Assembly: GCA_002711995.1 (NCBI GenBank) | Contig: PASN01000009.1 | Coordinates: 243,019 to 307,018, forward strand | Direction: 5' to 3' | From: Halobacteriovoraceae bacterium | GTDB taxonomy: Bacteria; Bdellovibrionota; Bacteriovoracia; Bacteriovoracales; Bacteriovoracaceae | Length of the DNA stretch: 64,000 bases | Shown here: piece after piece, positions 27,919 to 33,884 of the stretch | Layout: each line of letters begins with the position of its first letter | Position numbering within the stretch: the stretch's first letter is position 1 | Made by a program: the position numbers and the translations under genes | Notes under the pieces: model-generated | Databases searched by the model: none | What the model saw: the letters and a program-made list of their open reading frames with translations, nothing else | Told to the model about the DNA's origin: nothing

Positions 27919-27957
27919 AACATTCAGGCGAGCACCTAGCTTTCCTGAATGTTTTAA
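27919..27957 (+). terminator. Hairpin terminator, probably bidirectional
   Basis: AACATTCAGG (27919-27928) pairs with CCTGAATGTT (27944-27953) around a 15-nt loop, then TTTT. It sits between the transporter and the convergent tolC-like gene, whose stop codon lies just inside it. Confidence 0.65.
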
Positions 27958-29345
27958 AAGTCCATCGTCAGTTGTTTATATACAGAAAGGGTCTTTTTGA
28001 ATTTGCTTAGCCGTTGAAAAAACTTCGCTTTGGCATCCGCAGCGTCTTGCTCACGAAGGTTCACCACAAAGAAGTCACTTCCACCCTCTTTAAATTTGAT
28101 TCTTTCCGCATTTTGAAGCTTTTGAGCAAGCTCTGCTTCCTGCTTTATATTTTTGAGCTCCATCGTTAAGGACTTGAGTTGTACGGACATCGCTCTGGCG
28201 CTTGTTCCGATTTTTTCTCTATATAATTTAATTTGGTATTCTAAAGCTCTTTTCTTTGCAGCGGTGGCCTCAGACTTTCCTTTTGCAAGCCTTCGCTCTA
28301 TAGGGATCTCAAGCATAAGCGCCAATCTTTGCTCATCTTCACGAAGGGTTTCACTTCCCTGCCCGTAGTCTTTGGAAACTTCAATTCTAAGGTCAAGCTT
28401 TGGATTTAATTTGTTTCTCTCAAAAGCAAATTGATTTTCAAGTATTTTGCTTTTAAGACCTAATTGTTTAAGTTTTGGATTTTGCTGAAGAGCTTTTTCA
28501 ACTTTATCTACGTTTTCTCCCTTAAAACCTTCACCCACCTCAAGATTATCCATTGCAGGAAGCCTTTCGGGTTTAACGAATACTGGTCTTCCAGCTTTAT
28601 CTCTTAAAAACAAGGCGAGCTTTAGGCCGGCCTGTATGAACTCCCGCTCGGCCTTAATCGCCTTACTCTTCCTACGAGCGATGTATTGTTGATTTTCCAG
28701 ACCATAAATTTGAGCAAGATCTCCTTTCTGAATCCTTTTCTTAAGCCCAACCGCTCTTTTCTTGGCTATTTCCAAAAGTTGCTCGTAGATTTTATAAATT
28801 TGGCCCTTGGCAACCCAGCTCCAATAGGCCGAGTAGGCCATAGCTTTTGACTTTAATAACACTTGCTGGGTATTGGCCTCGCTTCCTTCAAGTCCTAAGA
28901 CTTCATTCGCTAGACTTGTCCGCCGTTTGTCTATCAAGCTGTCTCGCCAAAGTGAGAGTTTAAGTCCAAGCCTTGCTTCTCCTTCGTCCAATGTTTCTTT
29001 TTTGCCCTCATAAACTGGCCAATCACCGTCAGAACTTCTAAAGCCTGCATAAACTTCACCATTTAAGGGACCAAAAGGTTTTATAGCAACTGCGTCCACA
29101 GAATCTGCTTCATAAAAGCCTTCAAGCCGTTGGTCTTTTTTGACAGACAGCTTGGAGTCGAAAAGCCCTTTAGCCGCCAGTACTTTACTTTTGGAAGATT
29201 CAAGCTCTTGTAAACTTTCCAGCACTAAAGGATAGTGAAGCTTCACTGAGTTTAAGACTTCATCGATCTTAAGTGGCTCCTTGGCCACAATGTGGGTGCT
29301 TAAAAGCGTCAGAACGAATAGAGTTTTAGAAAAAGGTCTAGGCAT
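27954..29345 (-). CDS. TolC family outer-membrane efflux protein
   Basis: 463 residues from ATG 29345, which overlaps the HlyD stop by one base (TGATG); a GTG at 29348 is also in frame. A signal peptide (to about residue 21, THIVA-KEP) is followed by long helical heptads typical of outer-membrane efflux proteins, with two repeats and a C-terminal RIKFKEGGSDFFVVNLREQDAA, the family hallmark. It would form the outer-membrane channel for the HlyD/ABC pair upstream. Last gene of the operon. Confidence 0.9.
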   Translation of the reverse strand: MPRPFSKTLFVLTLLSTHIVAKEPLKIDEVLNSVKLHYPLVLESLQELESSKSKVLAAKGLFDSKLSVKKDQRLEGFYEADSVDAVAIKPFGPLNGEVYAGFRSSDGDWPVYEGKKETLDEGEARLGLKLSLWRDSLIDKRRTSLANEVLGLEGSEANTQQVLLKSKAMAYSAYWSWVAKGQIYKIYEQLLEIAKKRAVGLKKRIQKGDLAQIYGLENQQYIARRKSKAIKAEREFIQAGLKLALFLRDKAGRPVFVKPERLPAMDNLEVGEGFKGENVDKVEKALQQNPKLKQLGLKSKILENQFAFERNKLNPKLDLRIEVSKDYGQGSETLREDEQRLALMLEIPIERRLAKGKSEATAAKKRALEYQIKLYREKIGTSARAMSVQLKSLTMELKNIKQEAELAQKLQNAERIKFKEGGSDFFVVNLREQDAADAKAKFFQRLSKFKKTLSVYKQLTMDF

Positions 29346-30385
29346 CACTTAACTTTCCCGCTTTTCTTTATTGGAAACTCATTTGATTCAGGTCTCCCTT
29401 CCATTGATGGTGGGAAGCCATTAAACGTACGCCATAGCTCATATCCTATACTAACCGTATTTAGAAGGATCCAACCATAGACTCTTGTTCCTTGTCTAAG
29501 ATAAACATTGTCAGGCCAATCCTGTCCTTTACCAGGGATAACAATCACTCGAAACTTCCCATCTTTAGTGGCAGAGGGATCGATGCTCAACACCCTCCCC
29601 TTAAAAGTGCCGATTGCCACAGACGGCCAACCAGAAAATTGAACCGCAGGCCATCCTTCAAATTGAAGTCGCACCTGCCTCCCTGGAAATACCAAAGGCA
29701 GATCGTTTCCACTAATATAGATCTCTGCAGCGAGCTTCACTTCATTTGGCACAAACACCGCAAGCTTTTCACCTTTTTTAATAAAAACAGATCCTGACCC
29801 ATGTAGAGTTCTTAAAATTATTCCATCCTGAGGAGCCTTAACAGTTTGAGTCTGTTGCCTAGCAAGCTTGACTTCTTTTTGCGCCAAGGCCGCGGCTGCT
29901 TCGGCCTCTTGAGACTGCAGCTTTTTATAATTGATCCTGGCCTTCTCAACTTCAAGTTTTGAGCTTAGCCCTTGTGAGAAAAGACTTTTTTGCCTCTGGT
30001 AGTTATTGAGGGATGTGGCCCTTGCGTCTTCGGCCGCATCCAACTTCTTTTGAGCAGCATCCCTTTCAAGCTTTAGCCGCCTGATATAATCAGGGTCGAT
30101 GTCAACAATGCTTACAATCGGTTCACCCTTTTTGACTTCCATTCCATCACGCACAAACCATTTGTCGAGACGGCCATCAACGGTGGCGTTTATATTCTGC
30201 ACTCGGTTATTTGGGTCAAGGGCGATCACCTCTCCCCTGCCTTTTGAGGTCTGTTGCCAAGGAACAAAAAACATAACGATCATGATGAGACAAAAGAAAG
30301 CAAGAAGGATTAGAGCGAACAAGCGCGCCCAATTCGGAATCCTCACCTTCTCCATGCAACTGAAAAGTTCTTCTCCTGCTCTCAA
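29345..30385 (-). CDS. HlyD-type periplasmic adaptor protein
   Basis: 346 residues. TTG start at 30385 overlaps the ABC gene's TGA by 4 nt; AAGGA lies about 9-13 nt upstream, whereas the ATG at 30355 has none at good distance. One membrane anchor (about 20-42, LFALILLAFFCLIMIVMFFV), a lipoyl-like domain (NINATVDGRLDKWFVRDGMEVKKGE), a helical hairpin about 95-160 and a barrel with VKAPQDGIILR. It bridges an inner-membrane exporter to TolC. Same operon as the ABC and TolC genes. Confidence 0.9.
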   Translation of the reverse strand: MRAGEELFSCMEKVRIPNWARLFALILLAFFCLIMIVMFFVPWQQTSKGRGEVIALDPNNRVQNINATVDGRLDKWFVRDGMEVKKGEPIVSIVDIDPDYIRRLKLERDAAQKKLDAAEDARATSLNNYQRQKSLFSQGLSSKLEVEKARINYKKLQSQEAEAAAALAQKEVKLARQQTQTVKAPQDGIILRTLHGSGSVFIKKGEKLAVFVPNEVKLAAEIYISGNDLPLVFPGRQVRLQFEGWPAVQFSGWPSVAIGTFKGRVLSIDPSATKDGKFRVIVIPGKGQDWPDNVYLRQGTRVYGWILLNTVSIGYELWRTFNGFPPSMEGRPESNEFPIKKSGKVK

Positions 30386-32094
30386 CTTGTTTTTTCCTTT
30401 TGGAGTAAATAGTCTTTAAACTCTTCCATACTTTCAGAGATTGTTACCTTTTCATGACCAAACCATAAATAATCATCAAAATCTTTTGGGGCCTTATGCT
30501 TGTCGCTAAAGACTAATAAGGTCATGGGCAACTCTAACAGCCTGGAAAGAATTCTATTTCTAAGCCTGACTTCAATTTGGTCAAAAATATCCGTTAAAAT
30601 TAAAACCTTAGGTTTTTTCATTAGATGTTTAGCAAGCTCTAAAAGTATTAACTGAGAACTCCATAGAGGCGAGCCAGATGCTGTGAGATGTGTGTCCAGA
30701 CCTTTGGGAAGTTCTTCCTCCAAAAAATTTAGCTCAACAATGTCTATTATGTTTTTCATTTCTGATATAGAACTCGAGTCCTGTCCAAATGCGATGTTGT
30801 CCCAGATAGAACCTTCGATAATTCTGATTCTATCCAACACACCCACGTAGTCATTAATCTCTTCTTGTCCCAAATCATCGGTTGGGGTACTGCCTAAATA
30901 AATTCTGCCCTTATAAGGTTCTAAGTTTTTTCTAACAAGCTCTACAAACAAGGCCTGAAGAAAAAAGCTGTCTTTGCCAGCAAAGTACTTCCTGCCGCAC
31001 TCCAATTGAAAGTCGAAAGAGTAATCAACACCCCAGTGACTGCCCTCCACCTTTCTAAAGTCCAAACCACATGCTTCATCATGCAACCCCACTCTTGTAA
31101 CCTCCTCACTTGGAAGCTTTTTAAAAACAGTGAGCTTTTCTACGGCAGCATAAAGGTCATAAAAATCTTCCAAGTGCTTGCCGGACTTTGCGAGAGCACC
31201 CAGTATCATTGTTGCCACAAGTTCTGCGGCAACAAGCTGTCCTAAACTTAGCTGTTCTAAGATTACGAGATAGCCACCCAATCCCAACACAGCGGAGCTC
31301 ATCAATGCATAAATGCTAAATAGAAATATGATCTGGTAGAGAAGAAATTTAAAGTGTTGTTGTCTATTGTCTAGGTACCCCTTGATCTTTTCATCAGCGA
31401 CTTGGAGCGCTTTTTTTCTTCTAAGAGTAGTCTTAAAAAAAGAGTGGGATTTTGCAATCTGCTCAAGCCACTCGGCCACTTCGTATTTTGAAGTGGACTC
31501 ATAAGTGGCACTTTTAAGACCATTTTTACCAAAAAGCCCCCAAACCAAAACAAGCAAAACCAAAAGCAGAATATCAAATGCTAAAAAATAAGGATGATAA
31601 AATGCCAATAGTAGAAGCCCTGCAAAAGTTTGAAGAGCTATTGCAACACCACCCACAATCAAGCTTGTGACTTTCTTCTGAACAGTCATGATGTCAAAGT
31701 ATTTATTTACCAAAGATAGCCCGTCTCGTTGATCAACGACATGAGAATTTGCGTCTAGGAGCGCCAAAGCGGCATCGGAGGCGGATCGCGCAAAGAAGTG
31801 TCTTTGGAAAAGCTCGGTGACATAGAATTGAACCACATTGAGAATTCCGGAAAACACCAATAGTGAAAAAAGAACAAACGAGAGAACTAACAATGGCTGT
31901 AAAAGCCCAGTGAAGGCCACGGAGTTCACTAGGGACTGTACTGAAATGGGAACGGCCAAGCTTAAAACACTTGCCCCAATACCATAGACGATAGCTGCAA
32001 AGTATAGGGATTTTTCCGGAGCTAAAATAGTATTAAGGTTTTTCCACATTTCCTCGTAAGAAAGCACCCTGTTCTTAACACCGCTCTTTTTCAA
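30382..32094 (-). CDS. ABC exporter-like protein with degenerate nucleotide-binding domain
   Basis: 570 residues: an N-terminal ABC exporter membrane domain of six segments (about 30-310) and a C-terminal half laid out like an ABC ATPase. The ATPase motifs are missing. At the Walker A position it reads FAGKDSFFLQAL instead of GxxGxGKST; the LSGGQ site reads ASGSPLWSSQ; Walker B reads KVLILTDIFD without the following Glu; an H-loop-like SDKH remains. It probably cannot hydrolyse ATP as a homodimer and may need a partner. Start TTG 32094 with AAGGA 7 nt upstream. It overlaps HlyD by 4 nt and follows the LysR gene by 10 nt. Confidence 0.85.
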   Translation of the reverse strand: MKKSGVKNRVLSYEEMWKNLNTILAPEKSLYFAAIVYGIGASVLSLAVPISVQSLVNSVAFTGLLQPLLVLSFVLFSLLVFSGILNVVQFYVTELFQRHFFARSASDAALALLDANSHVVDQRDGLSLVNKYFDIMTVQKKVTSLIVGGVAIALQTFAGLLLLAFYHPYFLAFDILLLVLLVLVWGLFGKNGLKSATYESTSKYEVAEWLEQIAKSHSFFKTTLRRKKALQVADEKIKGYLDNRQQHFKFLLYQIIFLFSIYALMSSAVLGLGGYLVILEQLSLGQLVAAELVATMILGALAKSGKHLEDFYDLYAAVEKLTVFKKLPSEEVTRVGLHDEACGLDFRKVEGSHWGVDYSFDFQLECGRKYFAGKDSFFLQALFVELVRKNLEPYKGRIYLGSTPTDDLGQEEINDYVGVLDRIRIIEGSIWDNIAFGQDSSSISEMKNIIDIVELNFLEEELPKGLDTHLTASGSPLWSSQLILLELAKHLMKKPKVLILTDIFDQIEVRLRNRILSRLLELPMTLLVFSDKHKAPKDFDDYLWFGHEKVTISESMEEFKDYLLQKEKTS

Positions 32095-32104
32095 AACAAT
32101 TTCC

Positions 32105-32989
32105 TTAGACTAGAAAGTCATTAATTAAGAATTCCGTTATGGGATTCGGCAAGGTTCTCTGCACAGAGTAAAGAAAATATTCTTCTTTAAGCTCTCCCAA
32201 CCTTCCTATCTCATGCAGCTTTCCTTCTTCAACCAGTGGCATTGCAGCAAAGTCGGACAGAAATATCAAGCCCTTGCCATTCTCAGCTAGCATTTTTTTA
32301 AGACTTGAATCTTGAACCTCGGCCAAAAGCTTATATTTTATTTTATTTTGCTGGAATGAGTGTTCAATGTCATACCTTAGTTTGCTATGGGTGGTGGGGA
32401 GAATGAAGCCCATTTCATTTAAGGAGTTTGGAAAGTCAGACTTAAGGTCTTTATATTCCTCAGATCCATAGATCGAAACCTTGAACTCTCCAACTCGTTT
32501 TTCAAAGATGCCCTGCTGTCTGGCGTTTACACCTCCATTGGAAAGTACAAGTTCTAATTTGTGGGACATTAGCTTCTCTATTAAATTTTCCGGCTCCCCT
32601 TCTACAACGGATAGAAAAGTGTCTTCCCCAGCGTTCTGAGCTGCTTCTATTAGCTTACAAGACAAAGTCTTTGGGGCGGTGTCACATATGCCGATTCGGT
32701 ACTTGGACTGAAAAGACAAACTTTTATTATTGAAGATCTGAACAAACTCTTCACCTTTTTGAAAGATTTCCTCAGCATACTGCAGAGCAACTTTGCCAGC
32801 TTCTGTAAGCTCCATTTTTCTGCCTTTTCTTAAAAAAAGTTGTTGGCCAACACTTTCCTCAAGTTGTTTCAATTGAGAGCTTAATGCTGATTGTCCGACA
32901 GACAGTTTTTCTGAAGCACGAGATATACTTCCCTCGGTGGCTATTGTTCGAAAATAAAGAAGATGGTGATAGTTTAGCCACTTGATCAT
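32105..32989 (-). CDS. LysR-family transcriptional regulator, NhaR-like
   Basis: 294 residues. The N-terminal winged HTH (LNYHHLLYFRTIATEGSISRAS, then LSSQLKQLEESVGQQLF) closely follows NhaR, which responds to sodium in E. coli. The ligand-binding domain follows (about 90-290). Weak SD (AGGG) 6 nt upstream. With only 10 nt before the ABC gene, it is likely the first cistron of the exporter operon and may regulate it; an NhaR-type ligand is not implied. Confidence 0.85.
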   Translation of the reverse strand: MIKWLNYHHLLYFRTIATEGSISRASEKLSVGQSALSSQLKQLEESVGQQLFLRKGRKMELTEAGKVALQYAEEIFQKGEEFVQIFNNKSLSFQSKYRIGICDTAPKTLSCKLIEAAQNAGEDTFLSVVEGEPENLIEKLMSHKLELVLSNGGVNARQQGIFEKRVGEFKVSIYGSEEYKDLKSDFPNSLNEMGFILPTTHSKLRYDIEHSFQQNKIKYKLLAEVQDSSLKKMLAENGKGLIFLSDFAAMPLVEEGKLHEIGRLGELKEEYFLYSVQRTLPNPITEFLINDFLV

Positions 32990-33044: not shown

Positions 33045-33884
33045 TTAAAAAAGTCTTCCTGAGAGCCACATGGTGAAGTTTGCATCAGACAAATCAAAGT
33101 TTGTATTTCTGAAGGTGGTGAGCATTGGCTCCACACGCAGCAAATCACTTACCCTATATGACAACAAGAGGGTAAGGGACTCATCTTGTAAAAAGCTTAT
33201 ATCACTGTTGTTGTCTGCACTTCCATTGAGCCTATAAAAAACAGTGCTGCCTATATTGTCATTAAAAGCATAGTTCACTAATGGGGACATCCAAAAGGTT
33301 GCTCGGTCCTCTTGGTCCGCATTGCTTCCTTCAAACACGAGCAATCTACCGACAATCCAGCTGCCAACAGAAAGAGCTGGGTTTATTTGATAGTTGACGC
33401 TGTTAAAGCCACCTGGGTTGAACAAAAGTCCATCTTCTCGCGTATCACTAGTTCTAGCGAAGGGCATTATGGAGTTGATTCCACCGCCAAAGCTGAAGTC
33501 TCCGCGTCTATACCACTCCCCTGCAACACCAATCACTGGATCATCAAGCTGGAAATTGTTTGGCCGCTCATCAGGAGCATTGTGGTTAATAACAAATCTT
33601 GGATTGGCGACAAATCTTAAATTTTTATTAATCTCCCATCCAAAGCTTAACTGGTTCCACGTTGAGACTCCGCCTTCCTCTATTTCACCAAATTCATTCA
33701 CGGGGTCTTTGCCATTCCCAATTGAAGGTCCAGTAAAGATAGAGAAATAACTCAACTGATCAGGCTTAATAGCTTCAAGTCCCCTCACATTCAAAGGGAC
33801 TTTAGCTTTCATAAGATTAGTATTAGTGGCGGCAAAGGACATACCAGTTGCCATAACTAGTCCGAAGCTTATTAAAAATTTCAT
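33045..33884 (-). CDS. Predicted outer-membrane beta-barrel protein
   Basis: 279 residues. Signal peptide MKFLISFGLVMATGMSFA; the rest is amphipathic strands with aromatic girdle residues and short turns (SFGWEINKNLRFVANPRFVIN, TLLLSYRVSDLLRVEP), and the last strand ends MWLSGRLF with a terminal Phe. No specific family recognised. A 53-residue lipoprotein gene lies 9 nt upstream, so the pair are likely co-expressed. Confidence 0.72.
   Translation of the reverse strand: MKFLISFGLVMATGMSFAATNTNLMKAKVPLNVRGLEAIKPDQLSYFSIFTGPSIGNGKDPVNEFGEIEEGGVSTWNQLSFGWEINKNLRFVANPRFVINHNAPDERPNNFQLDDPVIGVAGEWYRRGDFSFGGGINSIMPFARTSDTREDGLLFNPGGFNSVNYQINPALSVGSWIVGRLLVFEGSNADQEDRATFWMSPLVNYAFNDNIGSTVFYRLNGSADNNSDISFLQDESLTLLLSYRVSDLLRVEPMLTTFRNTNFDLSDANFTMWLSGRLF

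Follow-up and report, generated by a model that had tools for sequence, protein, structure and literature searches.

A widespread family of tripartite pseudo-ABC exporters with an eroded or missing ATPase domain that may be driven by proton motive force

Results and discussion

The ABC gene and its operon

The window, which is the whole stretch of 64,000 nucleotides analysed here from a Halobacteriovoraceae bacterium, carries four genes on one strand in the order LysR, ABC, HlyD, and TolC (Table 1). The initial annotation took these to be an intact operon with small overlaps and this is borne out: the ABC and HlyD genes overlap by 4 nt, the HlyD and TolC genes also overlap by 4 nt, and the LysR gene, which lies upstream, is separated from the ABC gene by 10 nt. 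The HlyD, OEP, and LysR neighbours all gave clear Pfam matches, and a LysR gene also adjoins the operon in locus L033 and in one Alteromonas locus. The window adaptor retains an RLS-type TolC-docking motif, for which we used the published definition (PMC3391258); the strict RLS pattern was found in only 50 of 75 adaptors. A scan for promoters and terminators gave promoter-like sites that were no commoner than in shuffled sequences, and no substrate gene was recognised among the neighbours of the ABC operon. At 33045-33884 on the minus strand is a gene for a 279-aa protein that has no Pfam or NCBIfam match and whose kin are encoded at most a few kb away from the operon in L031, L033, L044, and L046; it is possibly an outer-membrane partner.

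Table 1. Positions in the window of the genes, domains, and residues discussed in the text
Feature	Position	Strand	Remarks
TolC-family outer membrane efflux protein	27954..29348	-	464 aa; Pfam OEP 1.4e-18
HlyD-family periplasmic adaptor	29345..30385	-	346 aa; Pfam HlyD_D23/HlyD_3
Putative TolC-docking RLS motif in adaptor hairpin	29960..29995	-	RQKSLFSQGLSS
Pseudo-ABC half-exporter	30382..32094	-	570 aa; TMD residues 1-327, pseudo-NBD about 340-560
H-loop place	30493..30522	-	reads TLLVFSDKHK; aligned position without His
Walker B place	30577..30609	-	reads KVLILTDIFDQ (LILDE to LILTD); Asp and catalytic Glu gone
ABC signature place (LSGGQ)	30652..30675	-	reads GSPLWSSQ
Q-loop place	30820..30852	-	reads DYVGVLDRIRI; Gln absent
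Walker A place	30952..30978	-	reads GKDSFFLQA (residues 373-381); expected GxxxxGK[ST]
Transmembrane domain, six long helices	31114..32094	-	conserved in at least 547 relatives
E291 in TM6 (GQLVAAE)	31222..31224	-	
H167 between TM3 and TM4 (YHP)	31594..31596	-	148/150 rows
E94 in TM2 helix	31813..31815	-	143/150 rows; Asp in 5
LysR-family regulator	32105..32989	-	closest NCBIfam model NhaR, below cut-off

An ATPase domain without its motifs

In Pfam the ABC gene matched ABC_membrane weakly (17.3 bits with a cut-off of 28) and did not match ABC_tran. Despite the missing ABC_tran match the C-terminal half is, by homology, a nucleotide-binding domain (NBD): phmmer aligned residues 100-530 to TM287 (7e-14) and the NCBIfam search aligned residues 17-532 to LssB (9e-19). 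An AlphaFold2 model of the protein, made from an input alignment of 70 family sequences, had a pLDDT of 92.6 and a pTM of 0.85 with the NBD fold present in the C-terminal half, and Foldseek matched the predicted structure to the cores of PCAT1, TmrAB, and HlyB with a TM-score of about 0.87.

What is read at the place of each ATPase motif is given in Table 1. Walker A, LSGGQ, and the Walker B Glu, which the initial annotation had named as eroded, are indeed absent at the aligned places, and to these losses that of the Walker B Asp is to be added. The loss is common to the nearest family members. It had been argued that a Walker A conserved in close homologues would speak against this reading; the homologue search found the opposite, the same lost motifs being shared by close relatives. 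The genome encodes three further ABC exporters, and since Walker A (GSGKS) is intact in each of them, as are the Gln of the Q-loop and the His of the H-loop, the motif loss is not a genome-wide artefact. Many of the family genomes are MAGs; sequencing or assembly error is ruled out because the identical loss recurs across many genomes assembled independently and the reading frame is open throughout, with 0 stops and 0 frameshifts. Judged by these residues the window protein cannot function as an ordinary ATPase and, given that both Walker A and the Walker B Asp are missing, it probably does not bind Mg-ATP.

Distribution of the family

The hallmark of the family is the TM6 motif GQLVAAE. Matches to the protein were found in 28 of 97 relatives, the weakest being ordinary ABC exporters. 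HlyD of the window type is encoded in 72 of 369 genomes of the phylum and at these loci, if the contig extends far enough, the preceding gene nearly always belongs to the same transmembrane domain (TMD) family. A genome-wide scan with the TMD alignment gave at least 547 relatives. The 80 that were fetched came from Bacteriovoracia, Planctomycetota, Acidobacteriota, Methylococcaceae, Alteromonas, Salinimonas, Kordiimonas, Parvularcula, Erythrobacter, Halieaceae, and Myxococcales, and most of them have HlyD and TolC downstream. At the level of phyla the family is in Bdellovibrionota, Pseudomonadota, Planctomycetota, Acidobacteriota, and Myxococcota, and more distantly related proteins occur in Bacteroidota. 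It is also carried on sphingomonad plasmids, the records of which title two degenerate members 'ABC transporter transmembrane domain-containing protein'. No earlier description was found in the literature searched, which was open-access papers, and the family, which is large, is apparently undescribed so far. Some Planctomycetota members (L190 3488-5608 and others) are about 700 aa long with an N-terminal extension of about 150 aa, which in L190 had no Pfam match. Members in two records titled Klebsiella pneumoniae MAG, L182 and L219, group with environmental Proteobacteria in the TMD tree and these are likely mislabelled MAGs.

Graded loss of the motifs

The Q-loop Gln is absent from all 117 NBD-bearing members examined (0/117), and only 10 of the 117 have the Walker Lys, Asp, and Glu together with the H-loop His. 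The Walker A Lys is kept in 63, among which 62 have the Walker B Asp and just 16 the catalytic Glu; in the other 54 Walker A is lost, mostly alongside the Walker B Asp. The TMD tree has 150 rows and long branches, and 'quick' support values for the widest tree. In it the window falls in a clade of 53 rows (97% SH-aLRT), 49 of them degenerate and four fused, that is made up of Bacteriovoracia, Alteromonas, Sphingomonadales, and relatives and has lost Walker A; additional losses lie in Myxococcales and Planctomycetes. By its distribution, the motif loss in the window is a family trait and not local decay. The family appears to have drifted stepwise from ATP: every member lacks the Q-loop, most lack the Glu and the H-loop, many have lost Walker A and B, and some lineages are without the whole NBD.

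Relatives without an NBD

In Bdellovibrionota there are 25 loci at which a TMD-only protein of 281-316 aa is encoded directly before HlyD. Four genomes and species of this phylum, from two families, encode the TMD and HlyD as a single-chain fusion of 668-701 aa with 0 stops, three of the fusions being 55-56% identical to the fourth over nearly the full length. These NBD-less relatives keep the same HlyD-TolC neighbourhood. Support is 99/93 for the nesting of the fusions inside the degenerate clade, and 99/94 for the grouping of one TMD-only pair with proteins that bear Walker A. Because a single origin of the TMD-only and fusion proteins is rejected (AU p = 1.8e-5) and a single origin of all the TMD-only proteins is not (AU p = 0.10), the tree places the outright removal of the NBD at no fewer than two events in Bdellovibrionota, one giving TMD-only proteins and one giving fusions, and the number of removals claimed is limited to two. 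ICL1 and ICL2 are the two cytoplasmic loops to which the NBD normally docks. In the TMD-only proteins they are mostly shortened, the medians going from 46 to 34 residues for ICL1 and from 44 to 28 for ICL2. In the fusions their lengths are nearly retained, which is consistent with descent from NBD-bearing degenerate proteins, and the loop lengths of the window protein are normal. As these relatives indicate, the family can manage without an NBD.

Two loci are irregular. At L048 9050-9938 a TMD-only gene is broken into two ORFs (146 and 151 aa) that overlap, with intact HlyD and TolC after it, and the split is either a frameshift or an assembly error. At L104 395-3622, HlyD and TolC lie behind a modABC-like molybdate operon and the TMD gene is missing; this was considered as a TMD-less variant with a new ATPase and rejected, as the ATPase is part of the molybdate operon.

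Conserved residues of the TMD and selection

E291 is kept in 65 of 65 Walker-A-bearing rows, in all 25 TMD-only and all four fusion rows, and in 45 of 56 degenerate rows, and is replaced, by Ala or Phe, only in one degenerate clade of 11 rows. Loci L085-L097, of genera g24 and g5, form a paralogous degenerate clade without E291 that also has K140S, E199L, S200A, and H247L, and several of these genomes have a TMD-only copy too, in a separate operon. Like E291, both E94 and H167 occur in Walker-A-keeping relatives. That E291 was gained upon NBD loss as a marker of proton coupling is refuted, since Walker-A-bearing relatives already have it.

In close pairs the dN/dS of the TMD is mostly 0.005-0.08, with a maximum of 0.12. 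That of the pseudo-NBD is 0.025 in Erythrobacter, 0.064 in Alteromonas, and 0.020 in genus g24, these values being for pairs with measurable dS. In such pairs, on these ratios, the dead NBD is under purifying selection. The proposal that this is a retained pseudo-ATPase and not a decaying gene thus holds, as homologues share the losses and close pairs show purifying selection.

Comparison with known systems

The best matches in sequence and fold are the type I secretion and bacteriocin exporters HlyB, LssB, PCAT1, and ComA, with which the window protein shares the type-IV exporter fold and NBD; HlyB likewise partners with a HlyD adaptor and TolC. These four have complete ATPase motifs whereas the window protein has none, and it is also without the N-terminal C39-type domain of HlyB and PCAT1. 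By operon it has the HlyD-type adaptor and TolC of a type I secretion system, and in the predicted structure it has the exporter TMD and NBD fold in one chain as in a type-IV ABC exporter, but it lacks the Walker A, Walker B Asp and Glu, LSGGQ, Q-loop Gln, and H-loop His of an ATP-driven one. Its placement is therefore type I secretion-like by fold and operon and outside the ATP-driven ABC transporters by its ATPase residues, and it is best described as a member of a tripartite pseudo-ABC exporter family. Heterodimeric exporters with a degenerate site, such as TmrAB, TM287/288, and BmrCD, also have degenerate ATP-site residues in an exporter NBD; the window chain, unlike these, has lost every catalytic motif and has no co-encoded partner half. 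With the RND and MFS tripartite pumps AcrAB-TolC and EmrAB-TolC it would share an adaptor with an RLS-type motif, TolC, and a non-ATP inner-membrane pump, but its inner-membrane part has the ABC-exporter fold and not that of RND or MFS.

The candidate for a system that works alike is SbmA/BacA (SLiPT). SbmA is an ABC-exporter TMD that has lost both the NBD and the coupling helices and is run by protons; part of the glutamate ladder is already present in YddA, a relative of SbmA with an NBD (PMC13316013). The likeness lies in an ABC-exporter TMD without ATPase, an NBD-bearing ancestor, and conserved TMD glutamates (PMC13316013), and in coupling loops that are lost or shortened in NBD-less members. 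On the other hand, SbmA/BacA is an importer whereas the window family has the architecture of an exporter with HlyD-TolC, and the window protein, unlike SbmA/BacA, retains the NBD fold and normal loops. Proton coupling is proposed here by analogy. Membership of SLiPT by sequence is ruled out, as none of the 31 TMDs scanned matched PF05992 (SbmA/BacA).

Energy source of the exporter

We propose that the ABC protein is the inner-membrane part of a tripartite exporter of pseudo-ABC protein, HlyD, and TolC, in which the ABC-exporter TMD would be the working part and the NBD a catalytically dead scaffold that does not hydrolyse ATP. Export would then be driven by proton motive force acting on the conserved acidic and His residues of the TMD, E94, H167, and E291, and the substrate is perhaps a small molecule or peptide. 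That the exporter works without ATP hydrolysis of its own, most likely on proton motive force as in SbmA, we consider about evenly balanced between true and false, and proton drive is preferred because the SbmA parallel is close. The three residues may instead serve contact with the substrate or the adaptor. Motif loss, conservation, selection, synteny, and NBD-less relatives are read from the sequences, and from there we infer transport activity and energy source for the window protein. The earlier suggestion of another energy source for export is thus the one we favour, chiefly since there are relatives without any NBD.

The main rival to proton drive is a gated or non-energised conduit, in which the TMD dimer would serve only to open the HlyD-TolC duct, as a gate or anchor, and the substrate would exit down its own gradient; a variant, covered by the same estimate, has the duct draining periplasmic substrate flipped by another protein. 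We regard it as doubtful. HlyD shows stronger conservation than the ABC protein (39-63% identity among the matches across the phylum) while the NBD erodes, L104 seems to have HlyD-TolC but no TMD gene, and fusion of TMD and adaptor suits a structural role, but the TMD core, its polar intra-helix residues included, is nearly invariant across phyla, beyond the needs of an anchor, and the TMD dN/dS is low. A purely passive conduit would have the same sequence signature as a proton-driven pump. It is less likely than the conduit that the NBD is regulated and not dead, binding ATP in some members without hydrolysis as a nucleotide-sensing switch, with the window protein as the fully dead extreme. 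The members that keep the Walker A Lys, nearly all with the Asp and few with the Glu, may still bind ATP, and a nucleotide-regulatory role may lie at the root of the family. Such a switch, though, is inapplicable to the window protein, where both Walker motifs are gone, and is silent on the energy source.

Pairing with an active subunit encoded elsewhere, which had also been suggested, would make the protein one half of a heterodimer with an ATPase-competent ABC half-exporter in trans, as in TM287/288 and TmrAB. The ABC exporter superfamily does include heterodimers in which one site is degenerate (PMC8277102), and this genome encodes other ABC exporters. The scan for a second half-transporter gave one adjacent pair (C13) and one MsbA-like half (C17); Walker A is intact in all of these and none belongs to the GQLVAAE family, and no orphan half-exporter was found in the genome. 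A second NBD lies near the operon in just 5 of 167 loci and is not conserved there, and NBD dimers are impossible for the TMD-only and fusion relatives. A hidden partner for the window protein is therefore unlikely, slightly more so than the nucleotide switch. The loss of every catalytic motif would also fit a pseudogene in decay, derived from an ordinary ABC transporter of type I secretion, a reading that is very improbable: the frame is open with a codon-position composition like that of the neighbours, the AlphaFold2 fold is intact, dN/dS is low in close pairs, and the loss is shared by the 53-row clade over Bdellovibrionota and Pseudomonadota. Selection and this clade rule out a local pseudogene.

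Hydrolysis of ATP at the NBD is what defines ABC transporters, and SbmA is the sole well-studied ABC-exporter fold without it that was found in the literature searched. For the preferred reading, extended to the widespread family as an ABC exporter turned secondary proton-driven pump that is still the inner-membrane part of an adaptor-TolC machine, our confidence falls a little short of even. If it is true, RND and MFS would be joined by an additional class of non-ATP tripartite exporters, in which many stages of NBD loss can be seen, NBD removal and fusion of pump and adaptor among them. One conserved operon offers the graded series, from Q-loop lost with Walker A kept, through catalytic Glu lost and NBD dead, to NBD removed and fused TMD, and among its carriers are bacteria in culture with sequenced genomes, for example Novosphingobium aromaticivorans, Erythrobacter, and Alteromonas, so that a change of energy source in the ABC fold becomes directly testable in this family. 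In strain DSM 12444 of N. aromaticivorans the operon is SARO_RS19820-19810. The annotation of such operons as 'ABC transporter' may mislead on energy, and a non-ATP drive could expose a new way to power export across two membranes.
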